DNA of 37,106 bases, from NCBI GenBank assembly GCA_003249795.1, contig QKHZ01000126.1:1-37106 (forward strand). Direction: 5' to 3'. Origin of the DNA: a bacterium (GTDB lineage: Bacteria > Planctomycetota > SZUA-567). The position numbers and the translations under genes were made by a program. How positions within the stretch are numbered: the first letter of the stretch is position 1; each line of letters opens with the position of its first letter. The notes under the pieces were generated by a model. It searched no databases. It saw only the letters and a program-made list of their open reading frames with translations, and was not told the DNA's origin. Shown piece by piece: positions 2,994-32,422 of this stretch.

Positions 2994-3014
2994 CAACCGC
3001 ATGGAGCGATGCCG

Positions 3015-3791
3015 ATGATCTACTCCGCAAGCCGCCGCACCGACCTCGTCGCGTTCTATCCGGACTATATCGCCGAGAAAGTCCGCCGCTCAAGAAAACT
3101 GGAGGCGCTCGTTCTCTGGACAAAAGACCCGCGAAACCTTGTCCAACACACGGGACTTTTTCTGACCATTCAGGCGGTGCCGACGATTGTGCAACTAACG
3201 CTGACCGGGCTTGCCGGTAGCGTGTGGGAACCGGATGTGCCGCGGCCTGAATTATTCACTGACACATTGCAGCGGTTATCCGAAGTCTTGCCGCATAACG
3301 CGGTGCAATGGCGCTTCGACCCGATCCTTGCAGATGATACGGTTTTCACCCGTTTCGACGAGATGAAAGAGCTGTTGGATCAGACGGGAATCTGTCCCGA
3401 CGGCGTAACGGTCAGCTTTCCCGATGCGTACGCGAAAGTGATCAAGCGGCTTGCCAAGGACGGGCTGCTGCTGCCAGTGCTGTCATTTGAAAAAAGGCTG
3501 ACGTTGTTGCGGAAACTTTATGAGCGCAGCAACCTGACGATCCGGCTGTGTTGTGAAAATAATCTGCTGCTGGCCGCGCGCGGTGTCGGGGATGTCAGGA
3601 AAATCGAACAGAGCCACTGCGTTGACGGCGCGTTAATTGACCGGTTGTACCACACAAACCTTGCGACACTTCCCCACGACCGCAGCCAGCGCGAACACTG
3701 CGGTTGCAGCCAAAGCACAGACATCGGAAGCTACGAACAACGCTGCCGCCACAACTGCCGCTACTGTTATGCCCGCCCCGAGCGCGACTGA
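3015..3791 (+). CDS. DUF1848 family protein, likely Fe-S binding
   Basis: The protein opens with MIYSASRRTD, typical of DUF1848, and contains the LWTKDP and QWRFDPI blocks of that family. It ends with a cysteine-rich stretch, CGCSQSTDIG then CRHNCRYCYA, which looks like an iron-sulfur ligand set related to radical-SAM proteins. An in-frame ATG exists at 3009, but GGAG at 3003-3006 lies eight bases before the ATG at 3015, so 3015 is the better start. It follows the TgpA-like gene by 21 bases and could be cotranscribed with it. It converges on hydE with only 40 bases between them and no clear terminator. The function of the family is not known to me; the name rests on sequence motifs. Confidence 0.85.
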   Translation: MIYSASRRTDLVAFYPDYIAEKVRRSRKLEALVLWTKDPRNLVQHTGLFLTIQAVPTIVQLTLTGLAGSVWEPDVPRPELFTDTLQRLSEVLPHNAVQWRFDPILADDTVFTRFDEMKELLDQTGICPDGVTVSFPDAYAKVIKRLAKDGLLLPVLSFEKRLTLLRKLYERSNLTIRLCCENNLLLAARGVGDVRKIEQSHCVDGALIDRLYHTNLATLPHDRSQREHCGCSQSTDIGSYEQRCRHNCRYCYARPERD

Positions 3792-3831
3792 TTTTTCACC
3801 GAGTTTCACCACCACGGTAAACGGAAAATTT

Positions 3832-4896
3832 CTATTCACCGGTATGTTTTCTGCTGCCATAACCGGTGCCGGCGCTGCGACCAAGAGCGGCAAGCTGCGC
3901 ACGGATAGCGTCCATTCCGATCTCCGCGGTCTCATGAATCCCCGCCTTTGACGGATAGATTTCGTACAGCACTCGGTACTGCTGCGGCGTCAGGTTCGGC
4001 ATCACGACATTCGCCCCGCGCGACAACCCGTGCGCCCGTCCCGCTTCGCGGTTGATCGTCGCAAGCGCGGTGGTGCTGGGAAGATTCGCCTCAGGACATA
4101 AAAGCCGCGCCAACGCCAGCACCTTGCAGACCGTCGTCTCGTCCGAAAGCGCCTGCACGCCTTTTACCAATTCAGGAAACAGTGAACGGTCGGCCAGCGG
4201 AGTCGCCGGATGCGGAATGTACGGGCCGATACCGATCATGTCAAGATCCAACTGCCGCATCAGCATCAGGTCGTCGGCCAGCGTATCGTACGACTGCCCC
4301 GGAATTCCAACCATCACCCCGCCGCCGATTTCATACCCCATCCCGCGCAAGCGTTTCAGCTGCTCGATCCTGTTACTGACGCGTGCGCCACGGTCGGGAT
4401 GAATTTTTTTATACAGTGTTGCGTCTGAGGTTTCAAACCGCAACAGATACCGGTTTGCTCCCGCTTCTTTCCAAAGCCCGGTATCCTCGTCCGAGCGCTC
4501 GCCCAGACTGAGCGTCACCGCCAGATCGCCTAGCGTTTTTATCTTTTCAATAATTCCGGCGACAAATTTTCCGGACAGGCCTTCATCCTCGCCCGCCTGC
4601 ATAACGACCGTGCCGAATCCATACTCGGCAGCACGCTTTGCACACGAAAGGATTTCGTCCTCCGTCATCCGGTAACGTTCAACCGCTTTATTTTCCGCAT
4701 TCACCCCACAGTAGCGGCATGTGCGCGCACAGTGATTGGAAACTTCAATCAACCCGCGCAAATGCACCGCATCACCAACCACTTCATGCCGGACACGGTC
4801 AGCCGTGTCCCACAGCATCTGCAACTTTTCCTCATCCGGTTCATGAAGCCAACGCAGGATATCGTCGCGCGTCAGGTTCTCGCCTGTTGGAATCAT
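3832..4896 (-). CDS. hydE: [FeFe]-hydrogenase maturase HydE (radical SAM)
   Basis: HydE is a radical-SAM enzyme that helps assemble the diiron subcluster of [FeFe]-hydrogenase, with the HydG product as its iron-cyanide substrate. The protein is 354 residues, the usual length. The radical-SAM cysteines are Cys56, Cys60 and Cys63 in CARTCRYCG. Family blocks MQAGEDEG, SLGERSDED, RFETSD, IGIGPYIPHPATPL and TINREAGRAHGLSRGANVVMPNLTP (read in parts) support HydE over BioB or PylB. The C-terminal three-cysteine motif found in some HydE proteins is absent; it is known to be dispensable. Its start overlaps the hydF stop by one base, and a strong GGAGGTGAGG ribosome site lies inside the end of hydF, so the two genes are translationally coupled. 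Confidence 0.95.
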   Translation of the reverse strand: MIPTGENLTRDDILRWLHEPDEEKLQMLWDTADRVRHEVVGDAVHLRGLIEVSNHCARTCRYCGVNAENKAVERYRMTEDEILSCAKRAAEYGFGTVVMQAGEDEGLSGKFVAGIIEKIKTLGDLAVTLSLGERSDEDTGLWKEAGANRYLLRFETSDATLYKKIHPDRGARVSNRIEQLKRLRGMGYEIGGGVMVGIPGQSYDTLADDLMLMRQLDLDMIGIGPYIPHPATPLADRSLFPELVKGVQALSDETTVCKVLALARLLCPEANLPSTTALATINREAGRAHGLSRGANVVMPNLTPQQYRVLYEIYPSKAGIHETAEIGMDAIRAQLAALGRSAGTGYGSRKHTGE

Positions 4897-6167
4897 CAGA
4901 CCTCACCTCCGGCGCGAAGCGTTTTGTAGAGTTGAAGCGCAGCCGGAAACGGTTCAAGCGCGCGTTCGAAAATTCCAAGGCTGTACGCAATCACAAGGCC
5001 GTAATTGGTGATCGGCACGTTCTGCTGGCGACAGCGCAAGATCCGCGACAGCATCGCGCGGCGGTTTGTGGTGCACGCGCCGCAGTGGATCACGAGCTTG
5101 TATCCGGACAAGTCGGTATCGAAATCGTGTCCCTGCACATGCTCGAACTTCAACTCGCCGCCAACATACTGCGTCAGCCACCGCGGAATTTTCACGCGGC
5201 CAATATCATCGGTAATCGGGTGATGACTGCAGGACTCGGCAACCAGAATCCTGTCACCGGGCTTCAGGTTTTCCACCGCCATCGCACCGCGCACCTGCTC
5301 GGTAAGATCGCCTTTAAACCGGCTGAAGAGGACGGAGAATCCTGTCAGTGGAATTTCGCGCGGCGTATCTGCTGCGACTTTTAAAAACGCCTGCGAGTCG
5401 GTCACAACCAGCTTCGGTTTCTTGCTTAGGCTCTGAAGCGCATGTGCCAACTCCCGTTCCTTAACGACAAGGCAGTAGCTGTCGCCATCGAGCAGATCGC
5501 GGATCGTCTGCACCTGCGGCAAAATCAGACGACCTTTCGGCGCCTCCTTATCGATCGGAACCACCAGCACCGCAAACTCGCCGGGGCCGACCAAGTCCGC
5601 CGCAATTGCCGGTTCATTTAAAAAATCATCAGGAGCTGCGGCAAGCATCGCGTGACGCAAGCGCTGGATATCCTCCGTCGGCGCACCGTCAGAAAGGCTG
5701 CCACCGCTGGCCGCACAAACCGAGACATAACTGATCTTGTCACGATCAAGCCGTCCGCACAGCTCAGCCGACGCCGGAGCGATATCGCGTTTATTCAGCA
5801 CGACCACGACAGGAATCTTTTTTGAAACAAACTCCTGCAGCAGTCCTTCTTCAAAGTCTCCCCAGTCACCTGCGCCCACCACCAGCAGCGCCAGATCCGT
5901 GCGGTCAATCACCTGCCGCGACTTCTCTACCCGCATCTTCCCCAACGCGCCCTCGTCGTCGACACCGGCGGTATCGATAAACAACACCGGCCCCAGCGGC
6001 AGCATCTCCATCGGCTTTTCGACAGGATCAGTCGTCGTGCCCGCCGTGTTGGAAACGATTGAAATCGCCTGCCGCGTAATCGCATTCAGCAAGCTGGATT
6101 TGCCGACGTTGCGCCGCCCGAAAATCCCGATATGCAACCGCAGCCCTTTGGGTGTGTTCATTGCCAT
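4896..6167 (-). CDS. hydF: [FeFe]-hydrogenase maturation GTPase HydF
   Basis: HydF is the GTPase scaffold that receives the diiron subcluster precursor from HydE and HydG and passes it to apo-hydrogenase. The 423-residue protein has an N-terminal GTPase domain with the P-loop GRRNVGKS at residues 17-24, a switch with TTTDPVEK, FIDTAGVDD and the specificity motif NKRD. The C-terminal iron-sulfur domain shows SCSHHPITDDIGR and the ligand pair HCGAC, the HydF version of HCGGC. The start at 6167 is supported by AAGGA six bases upstream. It lies 66 bases downstream of the aspartase and is directly followed by hydE. No hydG is visible in the window. Confidence 0.95.
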   Translation of the reverse strand: MAMNTPKGLRLHIGIFGRRNVGKSSLLNAITRQAISIVSNTAGTTTDPVEKPMEMLPLGPVLFIDTAGVDDEGALGKMRVEKSRQVIDRTDLALLVVGAGDWGDFEEGLLQEFVSKKIPVVVVLNKRDIAPASAELCGRLDRDKISYVSVCAASGGSLSDGAPTEDIQRLRHAMLAAAPDDFLNEPAIAADLVGPGEFAVLVVPIDKEAPKGRLILPQVQTIRDLLDGDSYCLVVKERELAHALQSLSKKPKLVVTDSQAFLKVAADTPREIPLTGFSVLFSRFKGDLTEQVRGAMAVENLKPGDRILVAESCSHHPITDDIGRVKIPRWLTQYVGGELKFEHVQGHDFDTDLSGYKLVIHCGACTTNRRAMLSRILRCRQQNVPITNYGLVIAYSLGIFERALEPFPAALQLYKTLRAGGEV

Positions 6168-6233
6168 GTTCTATCCTTTTAAAGCGCATGCCCCTCACCA
6201 GACAAACGCCTCAGTTTTTTTGATTCGGAGAAA

Positions 6234-7673
6234 TCAGCGCGAAAAACTTCCAGGCATTCCGAGACGACACACCGCTTCCGGCGTCAGTAGAGCCATGAGC
6301 GACGACTCGTCCAGATCCGTCTCGGACAAGACGAGTTCACGAAACGGGGTTCCGGTTTCTTTTGCCTGACGTGCAAGCCGGCTTGTGGTGTCATAGCCCA
6401 GCACAGGCACAAGCGCCGTCACCAGCGCCGTCGTATTGTGCAGCGACCGTGCGCAGACCTCTTCATTTGCCGTCATCCCCTCGACACAATACTCGCGGAA
6501 AATTTTGCACGCATTCGTTAACAACCGGATACTGCCCAGAAGATTTTCCGCCACCAGCGGCAGAAACGGATTCAGCTCAAGCGTCCCGTTTGCACAAGCC
6601 TGCGTCAGCACCGCATCAAAGCCAAACACCTGCATCGCCGCCTGCATCACCGCCTCAGGGATGACCGGATTCACCTTACCCGGCATGATCGACGACCCCG
6701 CCTGCCGTGCCGGAAGCGTAATCTCGGCGAGTCCTGCTTCGGGGCCGGAACTCATCAGGCGCAGATCGTTTGCAATTTTATAAAGCGACGTCGCCAGCGC
6801 CTTCAGGATGCCGGAGACTTCGACAAACACATCCGCGTTCTGTGTCGCTTCAACCAGATTTTCCGCGCGGGCAAAACCGATGCCGGTCAACTCGCGCAAA
6901 GTTTCAACGACCTGGAAAATATATTGCCGCGGTGCCGCCAGACCCGTTCCGATTGCCGTGCCGCCGAGATTGACGACGCGCAGACGCTCTTCGCATTTAT
7001 AAATCCGCCAGCGGTCGCGCCCGATGCTTTCGGCGTACGCACCCATCTCGCGGCCGAGTGTTGTCAGCACCGCGTCCTGCATCTCGGTGCGCCCGACCTT
7101 GACGATCCGCGCAACCGCCTGCTCTTTCTGCTGAAACAATTCCTGCAGGGCGACGACGGCTTCTTCCAGATCCTTGATCATCCGGATCGCAGCCAGTCGC
7201 AGCGCAGTCGGATACGTGTCGTTTGTCGACTGATGCAGGTTCACATCATCCAGCGGAGAGACCGCGGCATAATCACCACAAGCCTTTGCCAAAATCTGCA
7301 GCGCGCGATTGGCAACGACTTCGTTGACATTCATATTCGTACTGGTACCCGCACCACCCTGCAGCGCGTCAACCTGACAGCTCTCATCAAGCAAGCCGTC
7401 GGCCAGCTCACGGCAGGCGCGTTCAATCGCATCCGCTTTTTCAGGATTATCTTTCCACGCCCCGAGGATACGACTGGTTTGCGCGCAGGCAAGTTTGACA
7501 GTCCCGTATGCACGGAACAACTCGATGTGAATATTTTTTTCTGCTAAAGGAAAGTTAACAATCGCGCGTTGCGTGTGCACACCCCACAGGACACCCGCAG
7601 GCACAGCGACTTGCCCCAGCGCGTCCTGCTCGGTACGGGATTGTTGTTGGTTTGTTTCACGAGATCTGTCCAT
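6234..7673 (-). CDS. aspA: Aspartate ammonia-lyase (aspartase/fumarase superfamily)
   Basis: The enzyme is expected to convert aspartate to fumarate and ammonia. The 479-residue protein carries the superfamily signature GSSIMPGKVNPV at about 326-337, with the catalytic Ser and Lys333, and the aspartase-type block GTSTNMNVNEVVANRA near 109-123, which favours aspartase over fumarase C. GGGAG sits just before the ATG at 7673. The gene lies immediately upstream of hydF and hydE on the same strand. From memory, aspartase genes occur in or beside [FeFe]-hydrogenase maturation operons of several anaerobes, so a link to maturation, for example through nitrogen supply, is plausible. A purely catabolic role is the alternative. 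No cap or missing catalytic residue was noticed. Confidence 0.92.
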   Translation of the reverse strand: MDRSRETNQQQSRTEQDALGQVAVPAGVLWGVHTQRAIVNFPLAEKNIHIELFRAYGTVKLACAQTSRILGAWKDNPEKADAIERACRELADGLLDESCQVDALQGGAGTSTNMNVNEVVANRALQILAKACGDYAAVSPLDDVNLHQSTNDTYPTALRLAAIRMIKDLEEAVVALQELFQQKEQAVARIVKVGRTEMQDAVLTTLGREMGAYAESIGRDRWRIYKCEERLRVVNLGGTAIGTGLAAPRQYIFQVVETLRELTGIGFARAENLVEATQNADVFVEVSGILKALATSLYKIANDLRLMSSGPEAGLAEITLPARQAGSSIMPGKVNPVIPEAVMQAAMQVFGFDAVLTQACANGTLELNPFLPLVAENLLGSIRLLTNACKIFREYCVEGMTANEEVCARSLHNTTALVTALVPVLGYDTTSRLARQAKETGTPFRELVLSETDLDESSLMALLTPEAVCRLGMPGSFSR

Positions 7674-7756
7674 CGGCTCTCCCGATGCCGTTTACGTTAT
7701 CGGAGACAATAATCCCAGCGGTGGCTCGCCGCACACGTTTAAGGGAATAGCAGCAG

Positions 7757-8971
7757 CTACTCTTGGGGCTGAATCTCGCTGAGCGTCTCTTCCAGCTTTC
7801 GCGCGTTCTCGGTCAATTCCTGCGCCTCTTCCGCCGCATCGGCCGCCACTTTTTCAGCCTGCTCATCTGCCTGTTCGCCACCACCCTCACCACCAGCGTC
7901 CGTCGCGGCGGCGGCATCAGCAGCGGGTTCATCATCATCAACAACACGATCGCCGTGAATCAGATCGCCAAGCAGTTCTTCCTTAAGCTCATCCAGCGTC
8001 GGCGTACTGATCCGGGCAATCGCGTCGCGATGGCGTTCTTCCTCTTCAATCATTTTGCACAACGGATGCTCGCGCATTTTATTCAGCAGCTGTTGTGGTG
8101 TGCGCGGACGCTTTTCGCGGTCTTTTGCCATCATCCACCCAATCAGCGCACTCGTTGCCGCCGACAATCGTGGATCAAGATCACGCGGACTCGGAAGATC
8201 GGCTTCCTCATCCAGATGTTTCTGCATCACCTGCTGCGCGGTTTCGCCCCGATACGGAGGCTGCCCCGTAATCATATGAAACCACGTGCAGCCGAGACCA
8301 TAAATATCGGCGCGGATATCGATATCGCAGTCACCGCGAACCTGCTCGGGCGACGCGTATGAGGGGCTGCCCATCACGACAGCCTCGGGCGTTGCAAACG
8401 CCACTTCCCGCGCGATGCCAAGATCACATAACTTCACGTCACCGTTATTGCCAAGCAGAATATTGCCTGGTTTCACGTCGCGGTGTACAAGCCCGGTTTC
8501 GAACACGCATTGCAATGCTTTCAGAATTTCGCGGACAATCCGGAACGCTTCCTTTTCCTGCAGGCGATGGCGGTCAAGCCGGTCGAGCTTCACGCCCAAC
8601 GACTCGCCGCGCACGAACTCCATCACAAAATAGAAGTACGTCCCCGTCCGCCCCACGTCATACCCGCGCACGATATTCGGATGGCGCAGGCGAGCGACAT
8701 TGCGCGCTTCGTTGAAAAACAGGTCGACCGCATTTTCATTACTCTGCAGATCCGGCGTCAATGCCTTGATCGCGACATCGCGACCGAGACGCTCGTCACG
8801 CGCCAGAAACACCGCACCCGATCCGCCCTGCGCAATTTTATCATACACCTTATATCCGGCAAACGGCTGTTCCCAGATCTCTTTCTGCCCGGACTTCGGT
8901 TCTTCATCCTGGCCGTCTTTGCGTTCTTTGCGATTCCAAAACGCAGGCCGCTTCGGATTTTCATCAGCCAT
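7757..8971 (-). CDS. Hanks-type Ser/Thr protein kinase, cytosolic
   Basis: The 404-residue protein is a complete eukaryotic-like kinase. It shows the glycine loop AQGGSGAVF (47-55), VAIK with Lys69, catalytic HRDVKPGN (Asp165), a DLG in place of DFG (Asp183) and YASPEQ as the activation-segment end. A charged N-terminal leader of about 35 residues precedes the kinase fold. The C-terminal 80 residues are rich in Ala, Glu and Asp and could form a coiled coil. No membrane helix or PASTA repeat is present, so it is likely soluble. It lies between trpE and aspA on the same strand with 73 and 83 bases on either side. Its substrates cannot be told from sequence; an operon link with the metabolic neighbours is only positional. 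Confidence 0.93.
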   Translation of the reverse strand: MADENPKRPAFWNRKERKDGQDEEPKSGQKEIWEQPFAGYKVYDKIAQGGSGAVFLARDERLGRDVAIKALTPDLQSNENAVDLFFNEARNVARLRHPNIVRGYDVGRTGTYFYFVMEFVRGESLGVKLDRLDRHRLQEKEAFRIVREILKALQCVFETGLVHRDVKPGNILLGNNGDVKLCDLGIAREVAFATPEAVVMGSPSYASPEQVRGDCDIDIRADIYGLGCTWFHMITGQPPYRGETAQQVMQKHLDEEADLPSPRDLDPRLSAATSALIGWMMAKDREKRPRTPQQLLNKMREHPLCKMIEEEERHRDAIARISTPTLDELKEELLGDLIHGDRVVDDDEPAADAAAATDAGGEGGGEQADEQAEKVAADAAEEAQELTENARKLEETLSEIQPQE

Positions 8972-11648: not shown

Positions 11649-13682
11649 TTACATCAGAGGATGCGACGGCCCTGACGGACGCGGCTTCTGTCCGCCACGC
11701 GACGGACTTTTCTTTCCGCCGCCTTTGATCCCGCCTTTACCGCCACCCTTTGCACCACCCTTGCCGCCGAAACCTTTGCCGCCTGTTTTCGGCCGCTCAG
11801 GGCGGAGTGTCTTGCTGCCGCTGTAGGAGCCGGATCGTCCAGCGCCGCCTCTACTTTTTTCATTTCCACGTCCGCCGCCTGCACCGTCGCCACTTCCGCC
11901 ACTTCCGCCACTTCCGCCACTTCCGCCACGGCTACCGCTGCGATGTTCCTGCGACTGGCCACGCGTGAAGGGTTTGCCTGACCTGTCCGGCCGATCTTGT
12001 CTGTCCGATCTGTTCGGACGGTCTGCTCTCTCCGATCTTCCGCCACGATCCGACCGGTCATTGCCCAGGCGTTCGCTTGAATACCCACCACGACCATTAT
12101 CTGAACGACCACGTTGTTCAGATTGATCACGGAAATCGCGCCGCTCATTTTTGCCACCCCGACCGCCAGAATATTGGCCGCCACGGGATGGCCTCTGATC
12201 ACCGCGACGTTCGTCCGAAAAGCCACCACGTCCGCCAGCGTTTTTGTTTCCACGAACCGGCCTCTCGTCACTCCGGCGTTCCTCCGAGGAACCGCCGCGT
12301 CCGAATGCGCTGGAGAATTCCCCGCGACCACTGCCGCTGCGACTACGCTGTTCCGATTGATCACGGAAATCGCGACGCTCATTTTTACCACCCCGACCGC
12401 CAGAATATTGGCCGCCACGGGATGGCCTCTGATCACCGCGACGTTCGTCTGAAAAGCCACCACGTCCGCCAGCGTTTTTGTTTCCGCGAACCGGTCTCTC
12501 GTCACTCCGGCGTTCCTCTGAATAACCGCCGCGCCCGCCATCACTTTTACCACCGCGAGACGGTCTTGACGAAGAACGCGATTCATACACATCAGGCCGT
12601 TCGAAGTCTCGGTATCCGCCCGAGCGTCCCCCCGGTTTTCTGGCACCGCCTCCGCCTGCACCACCTGAGCCACCGCGTCCACCGCGAACATCACGGGATG
12701 CGGGACGGTCTGACGCACGGCCAGCAGATTGGCCACCTGCATATTTAGCAGGGTCAGGCTTGCCCATGCGCTTGAACGCCTGCACTTCCGCACTCGCCCG
12801 GTGCTGGTATTTTCCGTTTCCGCGCGCCTGTGGGCGGCTCTGCGGGCGTCCCTTGCCTTGCGGTTTGCCCCGTCCTCCGCGCTTTGACGCGCCGAAGTCG
12901 TTGCCGTTGTCATCCGGCACATATTCAGAATCACCGGCGTTTTCCATATTCACCGCCAGCATCATCTTCTGCAGACGCTTCAGTTCCTGCGGGGTCATGT
13001 ACCGCATCCGGCCTTTGGGAAGCCCCTTGAGCGACAGCGGCCCCACTTCAAGTCGCACCAGTTTTTTGACTTCATGGCCGACGGCCGCAAACATCCGCCG
13101 CACTTCGCGGTTGACGCCTTCTGTGACCAGAATCTCCAGCGTCGTCGCTTCTTTATACCGACGGATCAGCTTGACCATCAGCGGACGGATCAGGACAGGC
13201 CCGAGGCGCACGCCCTTCTCGGTCATCGATGCAATGGTGTGGTCATCCACTTCGCCTTCGACGCGCACATGATAGCGTTTTTTCACGCCGCAGCTGGGGT
13301 GGGTCAGGAAGAACGCGAGGTTGCCGTCATTCGTCAGAACCAGCAACCCTTCCGAGTCGCGGTCAAGACGGCCGACGGGATACACGCGCTCACGCACCTG
13401 CTCGTCAACCAGATCCATCACGGTCTTGCGGCCGAGTTCGTCCGATGCGGTCGTCGTGCAACCTGCGGGCTTGTGCATCAGATAATAGACCTTCTTCTCC
13501 GCATGCACGGGCTTACCGTCAACCGTGATCTTGTCGGACTCAGGATCAATCTTGACGCCGAGTTCATTCACAGTGCGGCCGTTGACCGCGATGCGGCCTT
13601 CTAAAATCATCTCCTCACACTTGCGACGCGACGCGACTCCGCAGTGGGCGAGGTATTTGTGGATCCGTTCAAGCTGGCTCAT
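11649..13682 (-). CDS. RluB/RsuA-family pseudouridine synthase with long Arg/Gly-rich tail
   Basis: Residues 1-250 hold an S4 RNA-binding domain (IHKYLAHCGVASRRKCEEMI) and a pseudouridine synthase domain with catalytic Asp107 in GRLDRDSEGLL and the block EGVNREVRRMFAAVGH. This fits the RluB/RluE/RsuA family, which modifies 23S or 16S rRNA. The start at 13682 overlaps the manA stop by four bases (ATGA); a longer frame to 13769 would run back into manA. The remarkable part is a tail of about 420 residues, mostly Gly, Arg, Ser, Asp and Lys, built partly of two 78-residue-period repeats and GGS runs, ending in Lys/Gly-rich sequence. The tail is probably disordered and RNA-binding. Which rRNA base is modified cannot be read from sequence. 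Confidence 0.9.
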   Translation of the reverse strand: MSQLERIHKYLAHCGVASRRKCEEMILEGRIAVNGRTVNELGVKIDPESDKITVDGKPVHAEKKVYYLMHKPAGCTTTASDELGRKTVMDLVDEQVRERVYPVGRLDRDSEGLLVLTNDGNLAFFLTHPSCGVKKRYHVRVEGEVDDHTIASMTEKGVRLGPVLIRPLMVKLIRRYKEATTLEILVTEGVNREVRRMFAAVGHEVKKLVRLEVGPLSLKGLPKGRMRYMTPQELKRLQKMMLAVNMENAGDSEYVPDDNGNDFGASKRGGRGKPQGKGRPQSRPQARGNGKYQHRASAEVQAFKRMGKPDPAKYAGGQSAGRASDRPASRDVRGGRGGSGGAGGGGARKPGGRSGGYRDFERPDVYESRSSSRPSRGGKSDGGRGGYSEERRSDERPVRGNKNAGGRGGFSDERRGDQRPSRGGQYSGGRGGKNERRDFRDQSEQRSRSGSGRGEFSSAFGRGGSSEERRSDERPVRGNKNAGGRGGFSDERRGDQRPSRGGQYSGGRGGKNERRDFRDQSEQRGRSDNGRGGYSSERLGNDRSDRGGRSERADRPNRSDRQDRPDRSGKPFTRGQSQEHRSGSRGGSGGSGGSGGSGDGAGGGRGNEKSRGGAGRSGSYSGSKTLRPERPKTGGKGFGGKGGAKGGGKGGIKGGGKKSPSRGGQKPRPSGPSHPLM
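11889..11924 (-). repeat. Four 9-base repeats coding for GGS triplets
   Basis: Four perfect copies of the unit gccacttcc (plus strand) lie in tandem inside the pseudouridine synthase tail and encode repeated Gly-Gly-Ser on the minus strand. Such a tract can change length by slippage in steps of three residues without breaking the frame. Confidence 0.85.
12110..12302 (-). repeat. Tandem repeat unit 1 in pseudouridine synthase tail
   Basis: This segment matches 12344-12536 almost base for base, with a period of 234 bases (78 codons). It encodes the run containing NKNAGGRGGFSDERR and NERRDFRDQSEQR. The period is a multiple of three, so the duplication keeps the frame. High DNA identity suggests a fairly recent internal duplication. 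Confidence 0.85.
12344..12536 (-). repeat. Tandem repeat unit 2 in pseudouridine synthase tail
   Basis: Second copy of the 234-base-period repeat within the coding region. It differs from the first copy by scattered single-base changes, many at third codon positions or exchanging Ser, Arg and Gly codons. Confidence 0.85.
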
Positions 13683-14671
13683 TGGGCATCCGGTATATAA
13701 AAGACCAAAAGTTCGGCGTCCTTGCTCGGACGAACCGTATAAGAACCGGCTGCCGCCGGAATCAGACAACTATCCCACTTGCCGCGTTCAACACTGGCGC
13801 CACCCGCTTCAATCAGGCAGCTGCCTTTGGCGACCGTGATCAGGTGGAACCGCTCGCCGCCGGTTGTGAAGTTGCAGGGCTTACCGGCAAACTCCTTCAG
13901 CCGCTCCATGCGGAACTTCGGCGAATCAACCAGACGCTCCAGCACATATGCGACTGTCGGCAGGATTTTTCCTTCCACCGTCGTAATCCCGTCAGCCGAG
14001 AAGTCCGACACCGCCATCGCATGCTCAACATGCAGCTCACGGGGCTTTCCGTCAAGGCCGACGCGATTCCAGTCGAACACACGGTAGGTCGTATCACTGT
14101 TCTGCTGGATCTCGGCGATCCGTACGCCTGCACCGAGTGCGTGGATTGTTCCCGAAGGTACATACACCACATCACCCTCACGCACGCTGAACGCGTTCAG
14201 GCAATCTGCGACGGTTCCTTCTTCCAGCGCCTTGGCAAAGCTCTCTTTGGTCACGCCCGGTTTCAGGCCGCGGTAAATCTTGCCACCGGCTTCGGTTTCC
14301 AGCACAATCCACGCTTCGGTCTTGCCAAGTTCACCGGCCTTTTGCTTGCCTGCATATTCATCATTCGGGTGAACCTGCACAGACAAGTCCTGCACCGGAT
14401 CAATCAGCTTGAGCATCAGCGGAAACACGTTCGGGTTTGACGGGTCAACCGCCTTGCCGCAAAGCTCTTCCTTATTTTCAGTAAACAGCTCGTGCAGCGT
14501 TTTACCGGCATAGGCTTCAGTCAAACAAACGGTGGAGTCGGCGTCGTGATCGGACAACTCCCAGCTCTCACCGATCGGCTCAGCCGGAACATCGCCCGGA
14601 CGGTCGGCCAAGACCCGCCCACCCCACACGCGGACTTTCAGCAATGGTTTAAAAATCAAAGGTTGCTGCAT
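13679..14671 (-). CDS. manA: Class I mannose-6-phosphate isomerase
   Basis: The enzyme interconverts mannose-6-phosphate and fructose-6-phosphate with a bound metal ion. The protein of about 330 residues is the short class I form common in Firmicutes and anaerobes. Metal-ligand blocks are visible: VQVHPNDEYAG, KTEAWIVLE, then GDVVYVPSGTIHALGAG and EIQQNSDTTYRVFDW. The frame can extend to 14716, but the ATG at 14671 has AGGAG five bases upstream and gives the usual MQQPLIFKP start, so it is preferred. The stop overlaps the pseudouridine synthase start by four bases. Its leader carries a 78-base repeat also found before the LysM gene at 18937. Confidence 0.94.
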   Translation of the reverse strand: MQQPLIFKPLLKVRVWGGRVLADRPGDVPAEPIGESWELSDHDADSTVCLTEAYAGKTLHELFTENKEELCGKAVDPSNPNVFPLMLKLIDPVQDLSVQVHPNDEYAGKQKAGELGKTEAWIVLETEAGGKIYRGLKPGVTKESFAKALEEGTVADCLNAFSVREGDVVYVPSGTIHALGAGVRIAEIQQNSDTTYRVFDWNRVGLDGKPRELHVEHAMAVSDFSADGITTVEGKILPTVAYVLERLVDSPKFRMERLKEFAGKPCNFTTGGERFHLITVAKGSCLIEAGGASVERGKWDSCLIPAAAGSYTVRPSKDAELLVFYIPDAQ

Positions 14672-14687
14672 AATTTCTCCTGTTTTG

Positions 14688-14765
14688 CTTGTCGCAGCGC
14701 GGTAATGAAACCGCATTCATTCTCGTAACGTTTATTTCTTTTATTCTCTTCTCGCATTATCTGAC
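14688..14765 (-). repeat. 78-base leader repeat, copy A (before manA)
   Basis: This stretch aligns without gaps to 18954-19031; I count 66 of 78 identical bases. It ends 17 bases before the manA start, directly before the ribosome site. On the minus strand both copies contain AGATAATGCG, a possible -10 element, the shared run AAGAAATAAACGTTA, and a hairpin GCGGT-loop-ACCGC. Flanking sequence on either side is not alike. It could be a duplicated promoter with leader, a regulatory RNA, or a dispersed repeat. Confidence 0.8.
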
Positions 14766-14936
14766 TGCGCGGCGGACATTGCCCTCAGAGACAGACACAT
14801 GTATTTCACGTTAACAGGTGCAGCAGCATGCTGCCACATGCGATGGATCAGAACAAACAAATCCATAAGCTGTTTGATTATAACGGACTTTGACAGGGAT
14901 ACAACAGAAGATTAGCTGAGTGCAGAGAAAGAAAGA
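14766..14936. other. Intergenic region queE-manA
   Basis: No gene is supported here. The stretch holds a perfect 12-base palindrome GCAGCATGCTGC at 14823-14834 and a nearby GTTAAC. There is no T-run that would make a convincing terminator for queE. The sequence next to 14765 would be the upstream part of any manA promoter; no good -35 hexamer was seen. Confidence 0.4.
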
Positions 14937-15599
14937 TCAGACGCCGCGATCCTGCCCAGGCCAGATCCAGCGATGAAGCTGCAACTGTAAGCGTACGTTG
15001 AGGTTATCGAACAAAATCCATTCAGCCAGATCCGCCGGACGAAGCTCGGTGACAATCGGGCTCAGCAAAACCGCGCAAGTATCACTAAAATTACGCGTTT
15101 CGATCACGTGGCGGGCAAATTCATAGTCTGCGCGATCGGCCAGAACGAACTTGACTTCATCCGTCCCGCGCAGCTTGGCGAAATTCGCCGCGTTCATCCG
15201 CCTGTCCATCCGGCTTGAGGGACATTTGACATCCATCACGCGGATCACACCGTCCGGAAGGCTTCCGATATCCTCAGCGCCGTTTGTCTCGACGCCGACG
15301 GTAAAACCGGCCGCCAGCAGCCGACGAGCCAACTCCGGCGTCGCTTTCTGCTCCAGCGGCTCGCCTCCGGTAATCGTCACGTACCGCGGGCCCATCTCAT
15401 TGACTTTTTCAACGATCTCGTCCAGCCCCATCGTCGTACCCGACTCTTCAGACGCATAGCGTGTATCGCACCAGCGACAGTTCAGTGAACAGCCAGACAG
15501 CCGCACAAACACGCACGGCATCCCCGCACGCGTACTTTCGCCCTGAATACTGGAAAAGATCTCGTTGACATTCAATGATTCTTCACGCACGGAGAACAA
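14937..15599 (-). CDS. queE: 7-carboxy-7-deazaguanine synthase QueE (radical SAM)
   Basis: QueE makes 7-carboxy-7-deazaguanine from 6-carboxytetrahydropterin on the route to queuosine in tRNA. The protein has the family start NEIFSSIQGES, the radical-SAM triad in CSLNCRWCDT (Cys37, 41 and 44 in the longest form), the SAM-binding TITGGEPLEQ and VETNGAEDI blocks, and MDVKCPSS. Start choice is uncertain. The longest form begins with TTG at 15599, inside the upstream gene. A TTG at 15575 overlaps the upstream stop as TTGA and would give the compact N-terminus common in this family. No other queuosine gene is adjacent. It lies downstream of dprA and a small membrane gene. Confidence 0.93.
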   Translation of the reverse strand: MFSVREESLNVNEIFSSIQGESTRAGMPCVFVRLSGCSLNCRWCDTRYASEESGTTMGLDEIVEKVNEMGPRYVTITGGEPLEQKATPELARRLLAAGFTVGVETNGAEDIGSLPDGVIRVMDVKCPSSRMDRRMNAANFAKLRGTDEVKFVLADRADYEFARHVIETRNFSDTCAVLLSPIVTELRPADLAEWILFDNLNVRLQLQLHRWIWPGQDRGV

Positions 15600-16012
15600 C
15601 TTTCTTTCGTTTTACAATCTTCTGTATGCTCATCATTGAGGTAGGGCAAATCCCATCTCGGATGTGTCAGATAATCCCATAAAGAAAAGACGTTAAACAA
15701 ATTCGGCTGAAAACATCGGTACAAAGTCATGTTCTGATCTGGATGTTCTTTTTTCCATTCATCAAAATCCGACACCACATGATCATAATGCACACCTTTA
15801 AATTCGCACTCAAACGAGCGGAACTGACCGTCATATGTCTGATAACAGCGCAAACCGGCTTCCTGAAAGAAAAGTTCTGACAGCCAAAAGACAACCAGAA
15901 CAACTGCTGAAATGATACACGCATAACGACAGCACTTCAACGGTGTTATCAGGATTGGAGGATTTACATTCGTCTCAGGAAGAGAATTATCACGAGTCGG
16001 GGAATCAGACAT
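15572..16012 (-). CDS. Small single-helix membrane protein, unknown
   Basis: I do not recognise this 146-residue protein. It has a short polar N-terminus, one strong membrane helix at about residues 28-49 and a polar C-terminal part rich in aromatic, Asp and Glu residues with several cysteines, including CKTKESCSPC near the end. The frame opens further upstream to 16132, but that would run into dprA; the ATG at 16012, 11 bases after the dprA stop, is preferred. By eye the region is clearly more AT-rich than the genes on both sides. It overlaps the start region of queE and could be cotranscribed with it. The base composition hints at a lineage-specific or acquired gene. Confidence 0.7.
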   Translation of the reverse strand: MSDSPTRDNSLPETNVNPPILITPLKCCRYACIISAVVLVVFWLSELFFQEAGLRCYQTYDGQFRSFECEFKGVHYDHVVSDFDEWKKEHPDQNMTLYRCFQPNLFNVFSLWDYLTHPRWDLPYLNDEHTEDCKTKESCSPCVKNH

Positions 16013-16023
16013 GCAAATGACTT

Positions 16024-17244
16024 CTAGCGCTTGGCGAAAAACTTGCCCGGCATCTGACGGATCACGCGCTTCAGTTCCAGCACCATCAAGGACGCCGACA
16101 CCTCCGCCACCGGCAAGCCCGACAACCGGCACAGTTCATCAATATGCACCGGATCACCCTCAAGCAAGTCCAGCAGGATCGCCTCCGACTCTTCCGGCGT
16201 CACCTTCCCCCGCAGAATCGCCGCATGAGGCAAGCCGTTGCCCGCTTTTGCACCAGCCGCGCCGGTCGAACCGGTCGGCCCGCCAACGTCCGCAATCCGT
16301 TTCTTGCGCGGATAGGATCTTCTGCCGCAGTCATCATCCTGTTCCATTACCGGAACCTTCTGCCCCTGCAGAAGCGGGCGCTTGACTTCATCCAGAATAT
16401 CATCGATGTCCCGCACCAGAATCGCGCCGTCTTTGAGTAATTTATTGCAGCCGCTGGCACCGGGCTGGTCGATCCGCCCAGGGATCGCGAACACGTCGCG
16501 CCCCATATCCGCAGCCTGATGCGCCGTGATCAGCGCGCCGCTGCGCTCGGGAGCCTCAACCACCAGCACGCCCGTACTCATGCCCGCGATAATCCGGTTG
16601 CGACGCGGGAAGTTCTCTTTTGCCGGAGTCGTGTCCATCGGAAATTCGCTGATCACCGCACCGCTCAGGGCGATCTCGGCAGCGAGGTCACGGTTCTCCG
16701 GCGGATACATATGAAGCAGCCCGCAGCCGATCACCGCAATCGTCCTGCCCTTGGCTTCGAGCGCTCCCTGATGCGCAAAGCTGTCAACCCCGCGCGCCAG
16801 ACCGCTGACAACCGTAAAGCCAGCCAGCGCCAGCTGCGTGCCGAACGTCCGCGCCTGCTCGCGTGCATAATTACTCGCGCGCCGCGTGCCGACAATCGCA
16901 AAGGCGTTGCCGTCGTCATACCGGATTTCGCCGCGCACATATAACACACTGGGCGGATCGAACACCGCCTCGCGCATCAAAATCGGATACGCCGGGTCGT
17001 CATACGCAATCACGGTGACGTTATTGTCCGCCGCCTTTTCAAGCTCCGGACGCGGATCAATGTCGCGGGCTTTTAAAATCCCCTGCAGTTGCGGTTTTCT
17101 GAGGTTAGTCGTTTTCTGGATCTCTTCTTCGCTTGCACCGAGAATCCGTTCACTGCAGCCGAAATGCCGGATCAGCTTGCGGATAGTGGCATTGCCCACA
17201 CCCGGGGCAAGAAGCAGACGGATCAGGTTTTCGACACGTTCCAT
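16024..17244 (-). CDS. dprA: DNA-processing protein DprA/Smf
   Basis: DprA binds incoming single-stranded DNA and loads RecA during natural transformation, but it is also widespread in bacteria not known to be competent. The 406-residue protein has an N-terminal helix-hairpin-helix-like region (LLLAPGVGNATIRKL), the Rossmann-like core with AIVGTRRAS, SGLARGVDSFAH, AVIGCGL and FPRRNRIIAG, and a C-terminal winged helix at about 335-400. Ser/Gly-rich and basic linker sequence joins the last two. It is the first gene of the long minus-strand block, with 379 bases before the next plus-strand start, so a promoter is expected upstream. Confidence 0.95.
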   Translation of the reverse strand: MERVENLIRLLLAPGVGNATIRKLIRHFGCSERILGASEEEIQKTTNLRKPQLQGILKARDIDPRPELEKAADNNVTVIAYDDPAYPILMREAVFDPPSVLYVRGEIRYDDGNAFAIVGTRRASNYAREQARTFGTQLALAGFTVVSGLARGVDSFAHQGALEAKGRTIAVIGCGLLHMYPPENRDLAAEIALSGAVISEFPMDTTPAKENFPRRNRIIAGMSTGVLVVEAPERSGALITAHQAADMGRDVFAIPGRIDQPGASGCNKLLKDGAILVRDIDDILDEVKRPLLQGQKVPVMEQDDDCGRRSYPRKKRIADVGGPTGSTGAAGAKAGNGLPHAAILRGKVTPEESEAILLDLLEGDPVHIDELCRLSGLPVAEVSASLMVLELKRVIRQMPGKFFAKR

Positions 17245-17623
17245 TGACGGTTCCCATTCTTATTTCTGCTTATCGATTTCCGGCGACCCAACAGGACAGT
17301 ATGCATATTGTATAAGACAAGTGTATTCGGTTTGTTTTTTTGCGCAAGCGTTTGTGCCGACATTTCGGCCTTTGCCCGCATTCTTTCGACTTCCTTTTCT
17401 CAAAAACATACGACACCTCCGCAAATACATACAAAACCCGCATAATCTGCTGGAAAAATCATGCCCAATCAGTCCAACGAACGGAAAAAGATTCAACGAA
17501 TTTGCCGACGAAGACACAGTTAGGATGGACGGCAACGGATTCTCATGCTAGAATCAAGACGTGACGTCGGAATGAATTTCGCTATCAGGCTATGATGCCA
17601 CTGTTATGACGGAGTTGTTGTTT
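17245..17623. other. Divergent intergenic region, dprA and unknown gene
   Basis: This 379-base stretch separates dprA (minus) from the plus-strand gene at 17624. It is AT-richer than the genes. Only one site can be proposed with any support, the plus-strand promoter at 17526-17554. For dprA, AT-rich sequence around 17295-17320 could hold a promoter, but no hexamer pair stands out. Short reading frames here lack ribosome sites and family features. Confidence 0.4.
17526..17554 (+). promoter_or_regulatory. Candidate sigma-70 promoter, extended -10
   Basis: TGGACG (17526-17531) and TAGAAT (17549-17554) are separated by 17 bases, and the -10 is preceded by TGC, the extended -10 form. It points to the gene at 17624. 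It is read by eye only. Confidence 0.4.
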
Positions 17624-18166
17624 ATGAATTTGCAGGAAGCCTGGCAGCTGGCCAGCCGCGAGACCAATATCCACCGTGCCAGAAAAAATATGCTCTATAC
17701 ATTCGGCTCGACCCGACTGCCGTATGTCTGTATCAGCCCCGCAACACAATCGGAAAGCAACGTGACTGTCCGCCGCGGGGAAGTGACTGCCGACCGGCCG
17801 AAGATCACGCTGCCGGGACAGGAACAGATTTCGTTTGAAGGCTTTGATATCGACCTGCCCGAAGGGGAAAAAACCGACGGGATGCTGCCGGTATTCCTTG
17901 CCCGACGGATCGAAATGCCCAACGCGAAATATGTCAATAAAGCCGACTCGGTCACAACAGAATCGCACAGCGTCGAAGAAGCGGTTGACCGCGAGATGAA
18001 CCGGCTGGAACAGCAGAACGATATCCGCACCGCCGTGATTCAGGCGCCAGAATCGGTCTGGCAGCTATCGATCCTGATGTATGTCGGCAGCCAGATCGTC
18101 CGCAGCGCTCCGGGCAATATCACCGAACACATGGAACACCTGCGCCTGCAGCACGGCCACGAATAA
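17624..18166 (+). CDS. Protein of unknown function
   Basis: I do not recognise this protein of about 180 residues. It has no signal peptide or membrane helix. The middle is mixed and acidic, and a Glu/Gln-rich segment near residues 115-135 (EEAVDREMNRLEQQND) looks helical. The end, WQLSILMYVGSQIVRSAPGNITEHMEHL, could be an amphipathic helix bundle. ATG 17606 is in frame, but GGAG at 17611-17614 lies nine bases before ATG 17624, so the shorter form is preferred. Codon usage resembles the neighbours. It is followed by a hairpin shared with the convergent LysM gene. Confidence 0.75.
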   Translation: MNLQEAWQLASRETNIHRARKNMLYTFGSTRLPYVCISPATQSESNVTVRRGEVTADRPKITLPGQEQISFEGFDIDLPEGEKTDGMLPVFLARRIEMPNAKYVNKADSVTTESHSVEEAVDREMNRLEQQNDIRTAVIQAPESVWQLSILMYVGSQIVRSAPGNITEHMEHLRLQHGHE

Positions 18167-18191
18167 CGCCTCTGCGACACGATAACGCTTT

Positions 18192-18233
18192 CCAATAAAA
18201 AACAGGACATGCCCCGAGCGGGAACGTCCTGTT
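18192..18233 (-). terminator. Rho-independent terminator after LysM gene
   Basis: AACAGGAC (18201-18208) pairs with GTCCTGTT (18226-18233). An inner CCC/GGG pairing extends the stem. On the minus strand it is followed by a run of Ts, giving a strong terminator for the LysM gene. On the plus strand the trailing sequence is only partly T-rich, so two-way use is possible but weaker. Confidence 0.85.
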
Positions 18234-18283
18234 TCAGTTTTCGTTAAGACTGTGGTGCAACGCCCTGAGCAGCCTTCAAACCA

Positions 18284-18937
18284 TCAGCGGTTTGAGTAAC
18301 CTGAATATGCAGTCTGTCCGAGTTCGCCTTCCGGACGCATTTGCGGAAGCTGCGGGATCACGAGATTCTGGCCCGGACGCAGAGCCGCCGGATTGACCTG
18401 CGGGTTTGCATCGCGGATCAGCGTCCACTTGTTGCCGTCGCCGTAGCACATCTTGGCGATCCGGTAAAGCGTGTCGTTCTCCTTGACCGAATACACACGG
18501 CTTGCCGTTGCCGTCGGTTCGACAGGACGCACACGTTGCTGCTGATTCTGCGGTTGTGTCTGCCCTGTCGGTGTTGAGGGCTGGGTGTTCTGGTTCTGGC
18601 CGCTGCTTCCATACTGGCCAAACGGATTCGGCTGTGGGGTTACCGGTAGCGGCGCCGCTTCAACTTCATCCTGATAATACGTCGGACGTGTCGTCTGCCC
18701 GCCAATAACGGCAACGGCCTCTTCCCTCAAGTGCATCAACTGGCTGGCCTGCCCGTCATCGGCAATTTCCTCATCCGTCTGCTGCGCTGAAAGCAAATCC
18801 TTGGTGTCAGTCAATTTACCGATCTGGCTAAGAGATCCGAAAAACAAAAGCAGGCCGACGGTCATCGTGATAAATGTCCCCACATGCGGCCGATGCGCCT
18901 CTTCCTGTTTTGTCTTACGACTAACCTTTGCCATCAT
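18284..18937 (-). CDS. LysM-domain membrane-anchored protein
   Basis: The 217-residue protein has a basic N-terminus, one membrane helix at about 20-40 (GTFITMTVGLLLFFGSL), a low-complexity Gln/Pro/Thr linker at about 95-145, and a C-terminal LysM domain (VYSVKENDTLYRIAKMCYGDG through LRPGQNLVIPQ, read in parts). LysM binds peptidoglycan, so the protein likely spans the inner membrane and touches the cell wall. ATG codons at 18937 and 18934 are both possible; AGGAG lies four and seven bases before them. The leader carries copy B of the 78-base repeat. No catalytic domain is seen, so a structural or cell-division role is a guess. Confidence 0.85.
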   Translation of the reverse strand: MMAKVSRKTKQEEAHRPHVGTFITMTVGLLLFFGSLSQIGKLTDTKDLLSAQQTDEEIADDGQASQLMHLREEAVAVIGGQTTRPTYYQDEVEAAPLPVTPQPNPFGQYGSSGQNQNTQPSTPTGQTQPQNQQQRVRPVEPTATASRVYSVKENDTLYRIAKMCYGDGNKWTLIRDANPQVNPAALRPGQNLVIPQLPQMRPEGELGQTAYSGYSNR

Positions 18938-18953
18938 CCTTCTCCTTTTTTTT

Positions 18954-19031
18954 CTTGCCGCAGCGCGGTACTGAAACCGCGTTCGTTTTTTTAACGTTTA
19001 TTTCTTTTCGACTCTCATCGCATTATCTGAC
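18954..19031 (-). repeat. 78-base leader repeat, copy B (before LysM gene)
   Basis: This is the gap-free partner of 14688-14765. In this copy the hairpin stem is CGCGGT/ACCGCG, six pairs. In copy A the outer pair is T and G, still able to pair as G-U in RNA. Another difference falls in the loop (CAGT against CATT). The repeat ends 17 bases before the first ATG, the same spacing to the start as copy A. Confidence 0.8.
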
Positions 19032-19336
19032 GGCACGACACAGCCGCCGCCGCAAATAATGCAACCCGATAACCATAAATAGGTTAGAAGGACAAAAAGA
19101 GACACAGATTCACCCGTGCGCACTTTCACCATCCTGCATGGGCAAACGTTCTTGCCCCCCTTGTCCTGTTTATCGACCCGACGGAGGCAGAATCTTCATC
19201 TTTTTCCGTATGAGTTGTCAGTACTTTATTGCCAGCTTCGCAACCTTTGGGTATCCTTGTACAAATCCTTGTGAATACTGCCGGTTTGGACAGATCCGGG
19301 CGGTAACGACAAACAGAAAAACAGCAGGAAGCAAAC
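19032..19336. other. Divergent intergenic region, LysM gene and FAD oxidase
   Basis: About 300 bases without a supported gene. Short frames in it lack ribosome sites and family features. Promoters for both flanking genes must lie here or in the repeat at 18954-19031, but no convincing hexamer pair for the oxidase was seen; TTGGAC near 19287 is a weak candidate -35. Confidence 0.35.
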
Positions 19337-30627: not shown

Positions 30628-31500
30628 TCAGGAGACCGGTTCAGTCGCAAGCGACAGGATCGGTCCGATTGCCTTGGAAAACGCCGCGGCTGTCGGCGTA
30701 TGCGCATAGTGGTGGACATATGCCTTGCCGCTGTCGCCGGACTCGGCAACCGACGGGTCGATCGGAATGCGGCCCAAGAACGGCACTTTCATGTCCGCCG
30801 CCATCTTCTCGCCGCCACCGGTTTTGAATATCTCGGTCACTTCGCCGCACTTGGGGCAGACAAAGCCGCTCATGTTTTCAATCACGCCCAGAACTTTCAC
30901 ATCAAGCTGACCGCAGAAGCTGATCGAACGGCGGACGTCGGCAATCGCCACCTGCTGCGGAGTCGTCACAATGACGGCGCCTGTAATCGACGGGATCGTC
31001 TGGCACACCGACAGCGGCTCGTCACCCGTTCCGGGCGGGCAGTCGACAATCAGATAATCCAACTCGTCCCACGCGACATCACTCAAAAGCTGCTGGATCA
31101 CACCCGCCTTCATCGGCCCGCGCCAGACCACCGCCGCATCACGGTCTTCGACAAGGAACCCGAGTGACATCACCTTCAACGTCCCGATCTCGACCGGCAT
31201 CAGCTTTTCGTCGCCGCCCAGAACTTTCTCTTCCGTCAGGCCGAGAATGGTCGGAATACTGGGACCGTGAAAATCAACGTCCAGCAGCCCGACATTTTTG
31301 CCTTCCATCGACAGCGACACGGCAAGGTTTGCAGAAACGGTACTTTTACCGACGCCGCCTTTGCCGGACATGACGACAATCACATTCTTGATTTTTGCCA
31401 GACTCATGCGCAACTTCTGCGCTTTCTGTTTTTCCTGATCCGAGCAGGAGGCACAGCCCTCGCCCTCGCCGCACGCGTGCGATCCACATGACTCACTCAT
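30628..31500 (-). CDS. Mrp/Nbp35-type Fe-S carrier ATPase
   Basis: This 290-residue P-loop ATPase belongs to the Mrp/ApbC/Nbp35 group that binds and transfers iron-sulfur clusters. Four N-terminal cysteines (5, 10, 16, 19) resemble the Nbp35 ferredoxin motif. The deviant Walker A is SGKGGVGKST (45-54); DVDFHGPSIP and VDCPPGTGDEPLS follow. CPKC at 215-218 is the bridging cluster site of Mrp dimers. The start overlaps the upstream ATPase by eight bases. In the cluster it may supply iron-sulfur units to the two DIMC proteins. Confidence 0.94.
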   Translation of the reverse strand: MSESCGSHACGEGEGCASCSDQEKQKAQKLRMSLAKIKNVIVVMSGKGGVGKSTVSANLAVSLSMEGKNVGLLDVDFHGPSIPTILGLTEEKVLGGDEKLMPVEIGTLKVMSLGFLVEDRDAAVVWRGPMKAGVIQQLLSDVAWDELDYLIVDCPPGTGDEPLSVCQTIPSITGAVIVTTPQQVAIADVRRSISFCGQLDVKVLGVIENMSGFVCPKCGEVTEIFKTGGGEKMAADMKVPFLGRIPIDPSVAESGDSGKAYVHHYAHTPTAAAFSKAIGPILSLATEPVS

Positions 31501-32422
31501 TGAGAAACCCTTTCACCCTGTTCCAAACAACTTCGGCTTCCGCCGCCAATTCTTTTTGTTCATCGGTCTGTGCGCACTCGGTGATGGCTTTTCCCGCGCG
31601 CAGGGCTTCGGTAAAGCCGCGCGAATACCGCACCCGCCCCGCCAGCTTCGCTCCGCGCGCTTCAGCTAACGCCTCAATCGCTTCGGTTTGCCCGGAATTC
31701 AAATCCCACTTGTTCACGCACACCGCAGCCGGAACCGAAAAGTGTTTCGCCAGATCCAGCACGCGGGCCATGTCATGCGCACCGGACACCGTCGGCTCAA
31801 TCACAACCAGCGCCAGACTCACGCCGCCAAGAGAAGCGATCACGGGACAACCCACTCCGGGCGGGCCGTCAATAATCACCATCGCGGCACCGCTTCGTCC
31901 GGCTTCATCGGCAGCCTGTTTGCGCACAAGCGAGACGAGCTTGCCGGAGTTCTCGCCTCCGGCATTCAGACGCGCATGCACCATTGTACCAGCGCTGGTC
32001 GAAGAAAGAAACCATTGACCGCATTCGGCGACAGGAAAATCGATCGCACCGACCGGACACGCGTGTACACAGACTCCACAGCCTTCGCACGCCAAGGGAT
32101 CAATTGTAAACGATGCCTGCCCCGCTCCGCCAGCACTTTTTCTCACAGCACCGAACCGGCAACGGGCATAGCATGCGCCACATTTAACGCAATCATCCGG
32201 ACGAATCACGGCTTCATGACCCGCGAGAAATTTTTCCTGTTTATTGATCGTCGGCGACAGGATCAGATGCAAGTCGGCCGCGTCCACATCGCAGTCGGCA
32301 AGAACAGACTTCGTATCCCCGCGTGAAGCGAGAATAGAAAACGCGGCAGTCAGGCTGGTTTTGCCGGTGCCGCCCTTGCCGCTGATCACGAGCAGTTCCT
32401 TCGGGGTTTGATTTTCGCTCAT
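31493..32422 (-). CDS. MinD-like ATPase with two inserted ferredoxin motifs (second)
   Basis: The protein of 309 residues has a deviant Walker A SGKGGTGKTS (14-23), then a ferredoxin insertion with two four-cysteine sets, Cys78-81-84-88 and Cys112-115-118-122, each fit for a [4Fe-4S] cluster, then DGPPGVGCPV and VVIEPTVSGAHD of the MinD fold. It is a paralog of the next gene upstream. Pairs like this occur in the Desulfovibrio orange-protein operons. The start at 32422 overlaps the upstream stop by four bases; a longer frame to 32440 would run into that gene. It may form a heterodimer with its paralog. Confidence 0.93.
   Translation of the reverse strand: MSENQTPKELLVISGKGGTGKTSLTAAFSILASRGDTKSVLADCDVDAADLHLILSPTINKQEKFLAGHEAVIRPDDCVKCGACYARCRFGAVRKSAGGAGQASFTIDPLACEGCGVCVHACPVGAIDFPVAECGQWFLSSTSAGTMVHARLNAGGENSGKLVSLVRKQAADEAGRSGAAMVIIDGPPGVGCPVIASLGGVSLALVVIEPTVSGAHDMARVLDLAKHFSVPAAVCVNKWDLNSGQTEAIEALAEARGAKLAGRVRYSRGFTEALRAGKAITECAQTDEQKELAAEAEVVWNRVKGFLNE

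Follow-up and report, generated by a model that had tools for sequence, protein, structure and literature searches.

Why should two unrelated genes of one bacterium be preceded by nearly the same leader? In the window (the whole stretch of 37,106 nucleotides analysed here), an earlier note had matched 14688-14765, before manA, with 18954-19031, before a gene for a LysM protein. Our alignment reproduced this match, with 66 identities over 78 positions and no gaps, and both copies do lie on one strand, as had been claimed, namely the minus strand. The spacing to the start codon is likewise as described: 16 bases separate the repeat end from the ATG in both copies, the start codon beginning at the 17th base (14669-14671 for manA, 18935-18937 for the LysM gene). 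The identities of the downstream genes, a type I phosphomannose isomerase and a LysM protein, were both confirmed by Pfam. The alignment extends to 89 nt (14683-14771 and 18949-19037) at 83% identity, and in a whole-genome search one window copy recovers the other at E=1.8e-21, which excludes chance. The 78-base leader is the downstream (3′) module of a larger repeat, itself modular and some 165-215 bases long. The parts found in the window and the two genes are:

14683-14771, minus strand: leader module (L) of the manA copy, an 89-nt repeat 83% identical to 18949-19037
14683-14703, minus strand: invariant core of the manA copy, ACCGCGCTGCGACAAGCAAAA, which differs from the consensus at one position (core pattern)
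14677-14681, minus strand: AGGAG ribosome-binding site between the core and the manA start (sequence)
14757-14836, minus strand: H1 (upstream) module belonging to the manA copy (H1 profile against the genome, E=4.7e-11)
14820-14834, minus strand: H1 hairpin GCAGCA-TGC-TGCTGC, one of a family of hairpins that show compensatory changes
18949-19037, minus strand: leader module (L) of the LysM-gene copy, between divergent genes, no H1 module recognised upstream
18949-18969, minus strand: invariant core ACCGCGCTGCGGCAAGAAAAA of the LysM-gene copy (core pattern)
18942-18946, minus strand: AGGAG ribosome-binding site between the core and the LysM-gene start (sequence)
13679-14671, minus strand: manA, phosphomannose isomerase type I, downstream gene 1 (Pfam PF20511)
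18284-18937, minus strand: LysM-domain protein gene, downstream gene 2 (Pfam PF01476)

The flanks of the two copies had been described as unrelated. This holds in part: the second repeated module lies upstream of the manA copy and was not recognised at the LysM copy. The divergent neighbour of the latter is a FAD-linked oxidase gene on the other strand; not every copy is thus intercistronic.

The earlier note had offered a dispersed repeat family of the genome as one reading and had proposed a whole-genome search. In the genome assembly (3.8 Mb, 291 contigs, 82% complete), such a search found many copies, placed before genes rather than at random, and confirmed this reading. Further leader copies were already recovered from the contigs with a 131-base query. 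The nearly invariant 21-nt core ACCGCGCTGCGGCAAGCAAAA has 42 matches at ≤3 mismatches and its reversed control pattern has none, and a sequence-only leader profile built from 25 copies (R1) gives 49 matches at E<0.01, a few of them tandem or partial. Outside this genome, nothing exceeded chance for R1 in 40 relatives (best E=0.02), for the core pattern in 20 relatives, or for a profile of the upstream module (R2) in 30 relatives (best E=0.009). A degenerate core pattern hit seven unrelated contigs in 84,980 GTDB species genomes, among which the genome of the window was possibly left out; this is about the chance expectation, and none of the seven has the leader context or a start codon. Three matches in IMG/VR are all embedded in the same sequence, which differs from that of the leader. 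A wide phylogenetic distribution was therefore rejected: with about 50 copies in one bacterium and none in the relatives searched, the element is lineage-specific.

Position relative to genes is strict. For at least 29 of the 42 matches, a start codon of the same strand follows 8-15 nt after the end of the core, the distance being 11-14 nt in most cases, and every start-proximal copy is oriented as its downstream gene. These genes are unrelated and of housekeeping type (thrS, trpS, pheT, gatC, greA, frr, yebC, ruvA, hslO and phoU); others encode a FabI-like reductase, DJ-1/PfpI, a YchJ-like protein, a response regulator, GH1 and a radical SAM protein, and the list goes on. No obvious regulon is apparent among them. 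Since the copies were picked by their core, core conservation is partly selected; columns outside the searched core are also conserved, namely TAAAAGAAnTAAACGTT at -40 to -24 and GATTnCAT at -9 to -2. On the upstream side, the neighbours are co-directional in 20 cases and divergent in 12, approximate counts that rest on gene calls made by a simple ORF procedure.

Full copies run in the following order: a stop codon, the H1 hairpin, a spacer of 100-140 nt, the core, AGGAG, a few nucleotides and the start codon, with a second hairpin (H2) within the spacer in some of them. Head-to-tail tandem copies on four contigs show that the repeated unit begins at the hairpin located about 115-140 nt upstream of the core. 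The upstream module consists of this hairpin followed by (ACC/GGA)CATTAACGCGAnTGAAAtgTTATTTG..ATACAGGCATTGATTCGCCGCG, and its profile R2 has 38 matches at E<0.01 in the genome. Chimeric copies are present besides the tandem ones. At several junctions the leader gives way to GGCRTGGCAACGACAYGCC, another hairpin, and to CGCGATTnTAAAAAAAGGAG, a different 3′ end, which indicates that modules combine. This second type of junction, in which the H1 hairpin, the other hairpin and the different 3′ end precede the start codon in the absence of the ACCGCGCTGCGG core, was seen before V-ATPase E, ftsW, rnf genes and groEL.

The earlier note had also suggested a structured RNA, a reading that fails for the leader hairpins, although the upstream module does contain a covarying hairpin. 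The proposed hairpin GCGGU-UUCAUU-ACCGC is present in both window copies, but it shows no covariation in the family: the helix GCGGU-ACCGC pairs in 53% of cells over 25 members, the same as in shuffles. The leader hairpin CCGC-GCT-GCGG is nearly invariant and shows no covariation either, and the minimum folding energies of the leader are not below those of shuffles, so that the leader hairpins were rejected as a conserved RNA fold. In contrast, H1, which often lies at the stop codon of the gene before it, is a hairpin with a 6-bp stem and a 3-nt loop whose stem occurs as GCAGCA/TGCTGC, GCAGCG/CGCTGC, GCGGCA/TGCCGC, GCGGCG/CGCCGC and GTGGCG/CGCCAC. An alignment of 32 sequences, made with a structure-free model, has 90% of its cells paired, and three of the six pairs are changed on both sides; doubly changed cells number 26, versus 9.5±3.8 in shuffles and no more than 4 in slid controls. 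These compensatory changes indicate selection on base pairing, which may act in RNA or in single-stranded DNA. As for the core, its strict conservation without compensatory change points to a sequence-specific protein or RNA partner, or to a recent spread, rather than to a riboswitch-like fold.

H1 is also linked to the gene that it follows. In 13 of the matches examined it starts at most 5 nt from the stop codon of a preceding co-directional ORF, and these stop codons are TAG in nine cases, TAA in four and TGA in none. In a genome sample of 292 genes, TAG accounts for 51 stop codons and TGA for 136; by arithmetic from this sample, the probability of at least 9 TAG in 13 is near 5e-5. This excess suggests that the H1 module probably supplies the TAG or part of it. 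The anatomy shown by the copies is that of a two-sided sense junction module: next to the stop codon stands a base-paired hairpin, and next to the start codon a leader bearing a Shine-Dalgarno site.

Full copies occupy junctions within conserved operons, and the element lies between pheS and pheT, pyrH and frr, groES and groEL, mraY and ftsW, V-ATPase subunits and Rnf subunits. The pheS-pheT and groES-groEL junctions are usually short. Here, filled by the element, the gaps are 168 nt for pheS-pheT, 187 nt for pyrH-frr and 186 nt for groES-groEL. We compared the first two with their counterparts in the same-family relatives, eleven of which allowed both genes to be placed. Between pheS and pheT, eight of the eleven have 14-44 nt and the other three have 167-235 nt of unrelated sequence; between pyrH and frr, nine of the eleven have 47-98 nt. 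The groES-groEL gap varies widely among relatives, several being as long and filled with other sequence or with the relatives' own repeats. As long gaps are also found in some relatives, the length of a junction alone is no proof of insertion. Examples of the relatives' own repeats, seen in the pheS-pheT or groES-groEL gaps of three of them, are CAGTCTCCAGT in arrays that face inverted copies, GGGCAGTTGGCAGTGG opposite CCACTGCTCACAGCCCAC, and AATTAACAATTAAC opposite its own complement.

Furthermore, one contig of the genome is a prophage, as its genes for portal, terminase, capsid and protease show, and copies of the element lie between its head genes and before a gene just upstream of that for terminase. 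Over positions 2056-8900 of this contig, the head and packaging genes are spaced by gaps of 165-195 nt, several of which hold copies or fragments of the element. The presence of the family in acquired DNA argues that it has been mobile in the lineage. The idea of a mobile leader, also put forward in the earlier note, is compatible with this presence and with the occupation of junctions that are short in most relatives, but neither a mobilising enzyme nor an end signature was found.

REP, BIME and REPIN sequences are dispersed, extragenic and hairpin-forming, are often found in operons and have lineage-specific copy numbers (PMC3733652, PMC8049555). The present element is likewise dispersed, extragenic, hairpin-bearing, often in operons and lineage-specific, but it differs from them by its length (165-215 nt), its modularity, its constant sense orientation and the fixed distance from its end to the start codon. 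While REPs are palindromes of 20-40 nt with a GTAG/GTGG tag at one end (PMC3733652), H1 has 15 nt and is preceded by C/A/T-TAG or other bases. No match to a RAYT/Y1 (IS200-like) transposase (PF01797) was found in the 82%-complete assembly, where controls were detected, and a REP/RAYT system was rejected on this ground. Palindromic intergenic repeats of the REP/ERIC type act on mRNA stability (PMC2267715, PMC8049555), and those of the ERIC/NEMIS type in Yersinia and Neisseria form RNA hairpins that affect it (PMC2267715). Like ERIC/NEMIS repeats (about 100-170 nt), the element is dispersed and inserted between genes. ERIC/NEMIS repeats form one long stem-loop via terminal inverted repeats; here only the short 15-nt 5′ hairpin covaries and the 3′ end is a ribosome-binding leader. 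The ends, GCAGCATGCTGCTGC... and ...GCGGCAAGCAAAAA, do not look like inverted copies as judged by eye. With intercistronic repeats in general the element shares a location between genes of conserved operons and a base-paired part, the covarying H1. Integron-like cassettes were dropped as a model, the genes concerned being single-copy housekeeping genes in conserved order.

Taken together, we consider it probable that the leader is the downstream module of a lineage-specific dispersed repeat of gene junctions, an intercistronic repeat of the REP/ERIC kind that is not itself a REP and that is kept at junctions. Several other explanations have to be weighed against this one. Putative mobile promoters, mentioned as promoter propagation in PMC8049555 and PMC9208149, are homologous sequences before non-homologous genes of one genome, as is the case here. 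Each copy would then contain a transcription start, and its duplication would place unrelated genes under one promoter. The common strand and fixed position before unrelated genes are in line with this proposal, as are the few copies with TTGGCA-N18-TAAAAA-like pairs; in addition, some promoter must exist within 400 nt of the LysM start codon, given the divergent genes around that copy. However, the best sigma-70 scores of the 41 copies match those of shuffles (6.2 versus 5.9), four copies beat all 15 of their shuffles and the positions are scattered, although the organism may use another consensus. A scan of the minus strand of the window gave no promoter-like site at either repeat. AGATAATGCG, which the earlier note suggested as a shared -10, occurs in just a few of the copies and shows no enrichment, so that it was rejected along with any sigma-70 promoter, and the shared promoter of that note finds no support in the scan. 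Many copies also lie inside operons that are already transcribed, and the conserved part adjoins the ribosome-binding site, with a second module adjoining the preceding stop codon. A mobile promoter is consequently rather improbable. A leader RNA acting in cis, of riboswitch or protein-binding type, that would control a regulon could account for the fixed distance to the start codon, the location of the core beside the ribosome-binding site and a near-invariant 13-nt motif. The core, ATTACCGCG-CTGC-GGCA (14683-14706 and other cores), also resembles the reverse complement of the universal 530 region of 16S rRNA with two one-base gaps, a weak similarity found after the fact (score 13; shuffles mean 9.8, maximum 12 of 60). 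Against this stand the lack of covariation in the leader hairpins, the ordinary folding energy of the leader, the absence of any Rfam family at gathering score over the window (two sub-threshold matches both lie away from the element), which led us to reject a known RNA family, and the diversity of the downstream genes. Head-to-tail tandems and a coupled upstream module would also be unexpected for a simple regulatory leader, and we regard this explanation as very improbable.

The element could also be a transposon of the MITE/REP type without any effect on its host, whose strict position and sense orientation would result from purifying selection alone. Its dispersal, non-coding nature and lineage specificity, its presence in a prophage, its tandem and chimeric copies and the covarying hairpin at one end are all expected of such a transposon. 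Nevertheless, transposase, GTAG tag and inverted-repeat ends are all missing from what was seen, and the start-proximal copies, all in sense and with one spacing, are positioned more tightly than merely tolerated insertions would be; we thus hold this proposal to be unlikely. Finally, the copies might constitute a portable operon junction, that is, a mobile or gene-converted cassette inserting at stop codons in essential operons and bringing a stop codon, a 3′ hairpin and a 5′ leader with its ribosome-binding site. Such a cassette would split pheST, groESL and mraY-ftsW without gene loss and uncouple their expression. We keep this last proposal as a tentative one, of rather low probability.

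If the leader belongs to a junction repeat of the intercistronic type, as we favour, copies would have spread within the lineage via a copy-and-insert or conversion process and would persist at junctions because they are harmless there, providing a benign 3′ end on one side and, on the other, a 5′ leader that is ready for use. With its stop codon followed by the base-paired H1, the upstream gene would have a clean 3′ end, and the next gene would be started by the A-rich leader, which carries a Shine-Dalgarno site of its own. By analogy with intercistronic REP and ERIC repeats, the likely effects at the RNA level would be an uncoupling of translation between adjacent genes of an operon and an altered stability or processing of the mRNA at H1; the spacing of operon genes by the element may be neutral or helpful. 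Should it prove to be a standard two-sided junction module, it would offer a natural route to a genome-wide rewiring of expression ratios within operons. Since some of these gaps hold other repeats in relatives, the group could lend itself to studies of the origin, spread and tolerance of intercistronic repeats.

The window holds other repeats as well. A 230-nt tandem direct repeat (12074-12303 and 12308-12537, 89% identical) lies within a long ORF on the minus strand (11649-13769), and at 30628-33318 three consecutive ORFs of the minus strand (290, 315 and 299 aa) have repeated segments of 23-27 nt in common, as expected of tandem paralogues.
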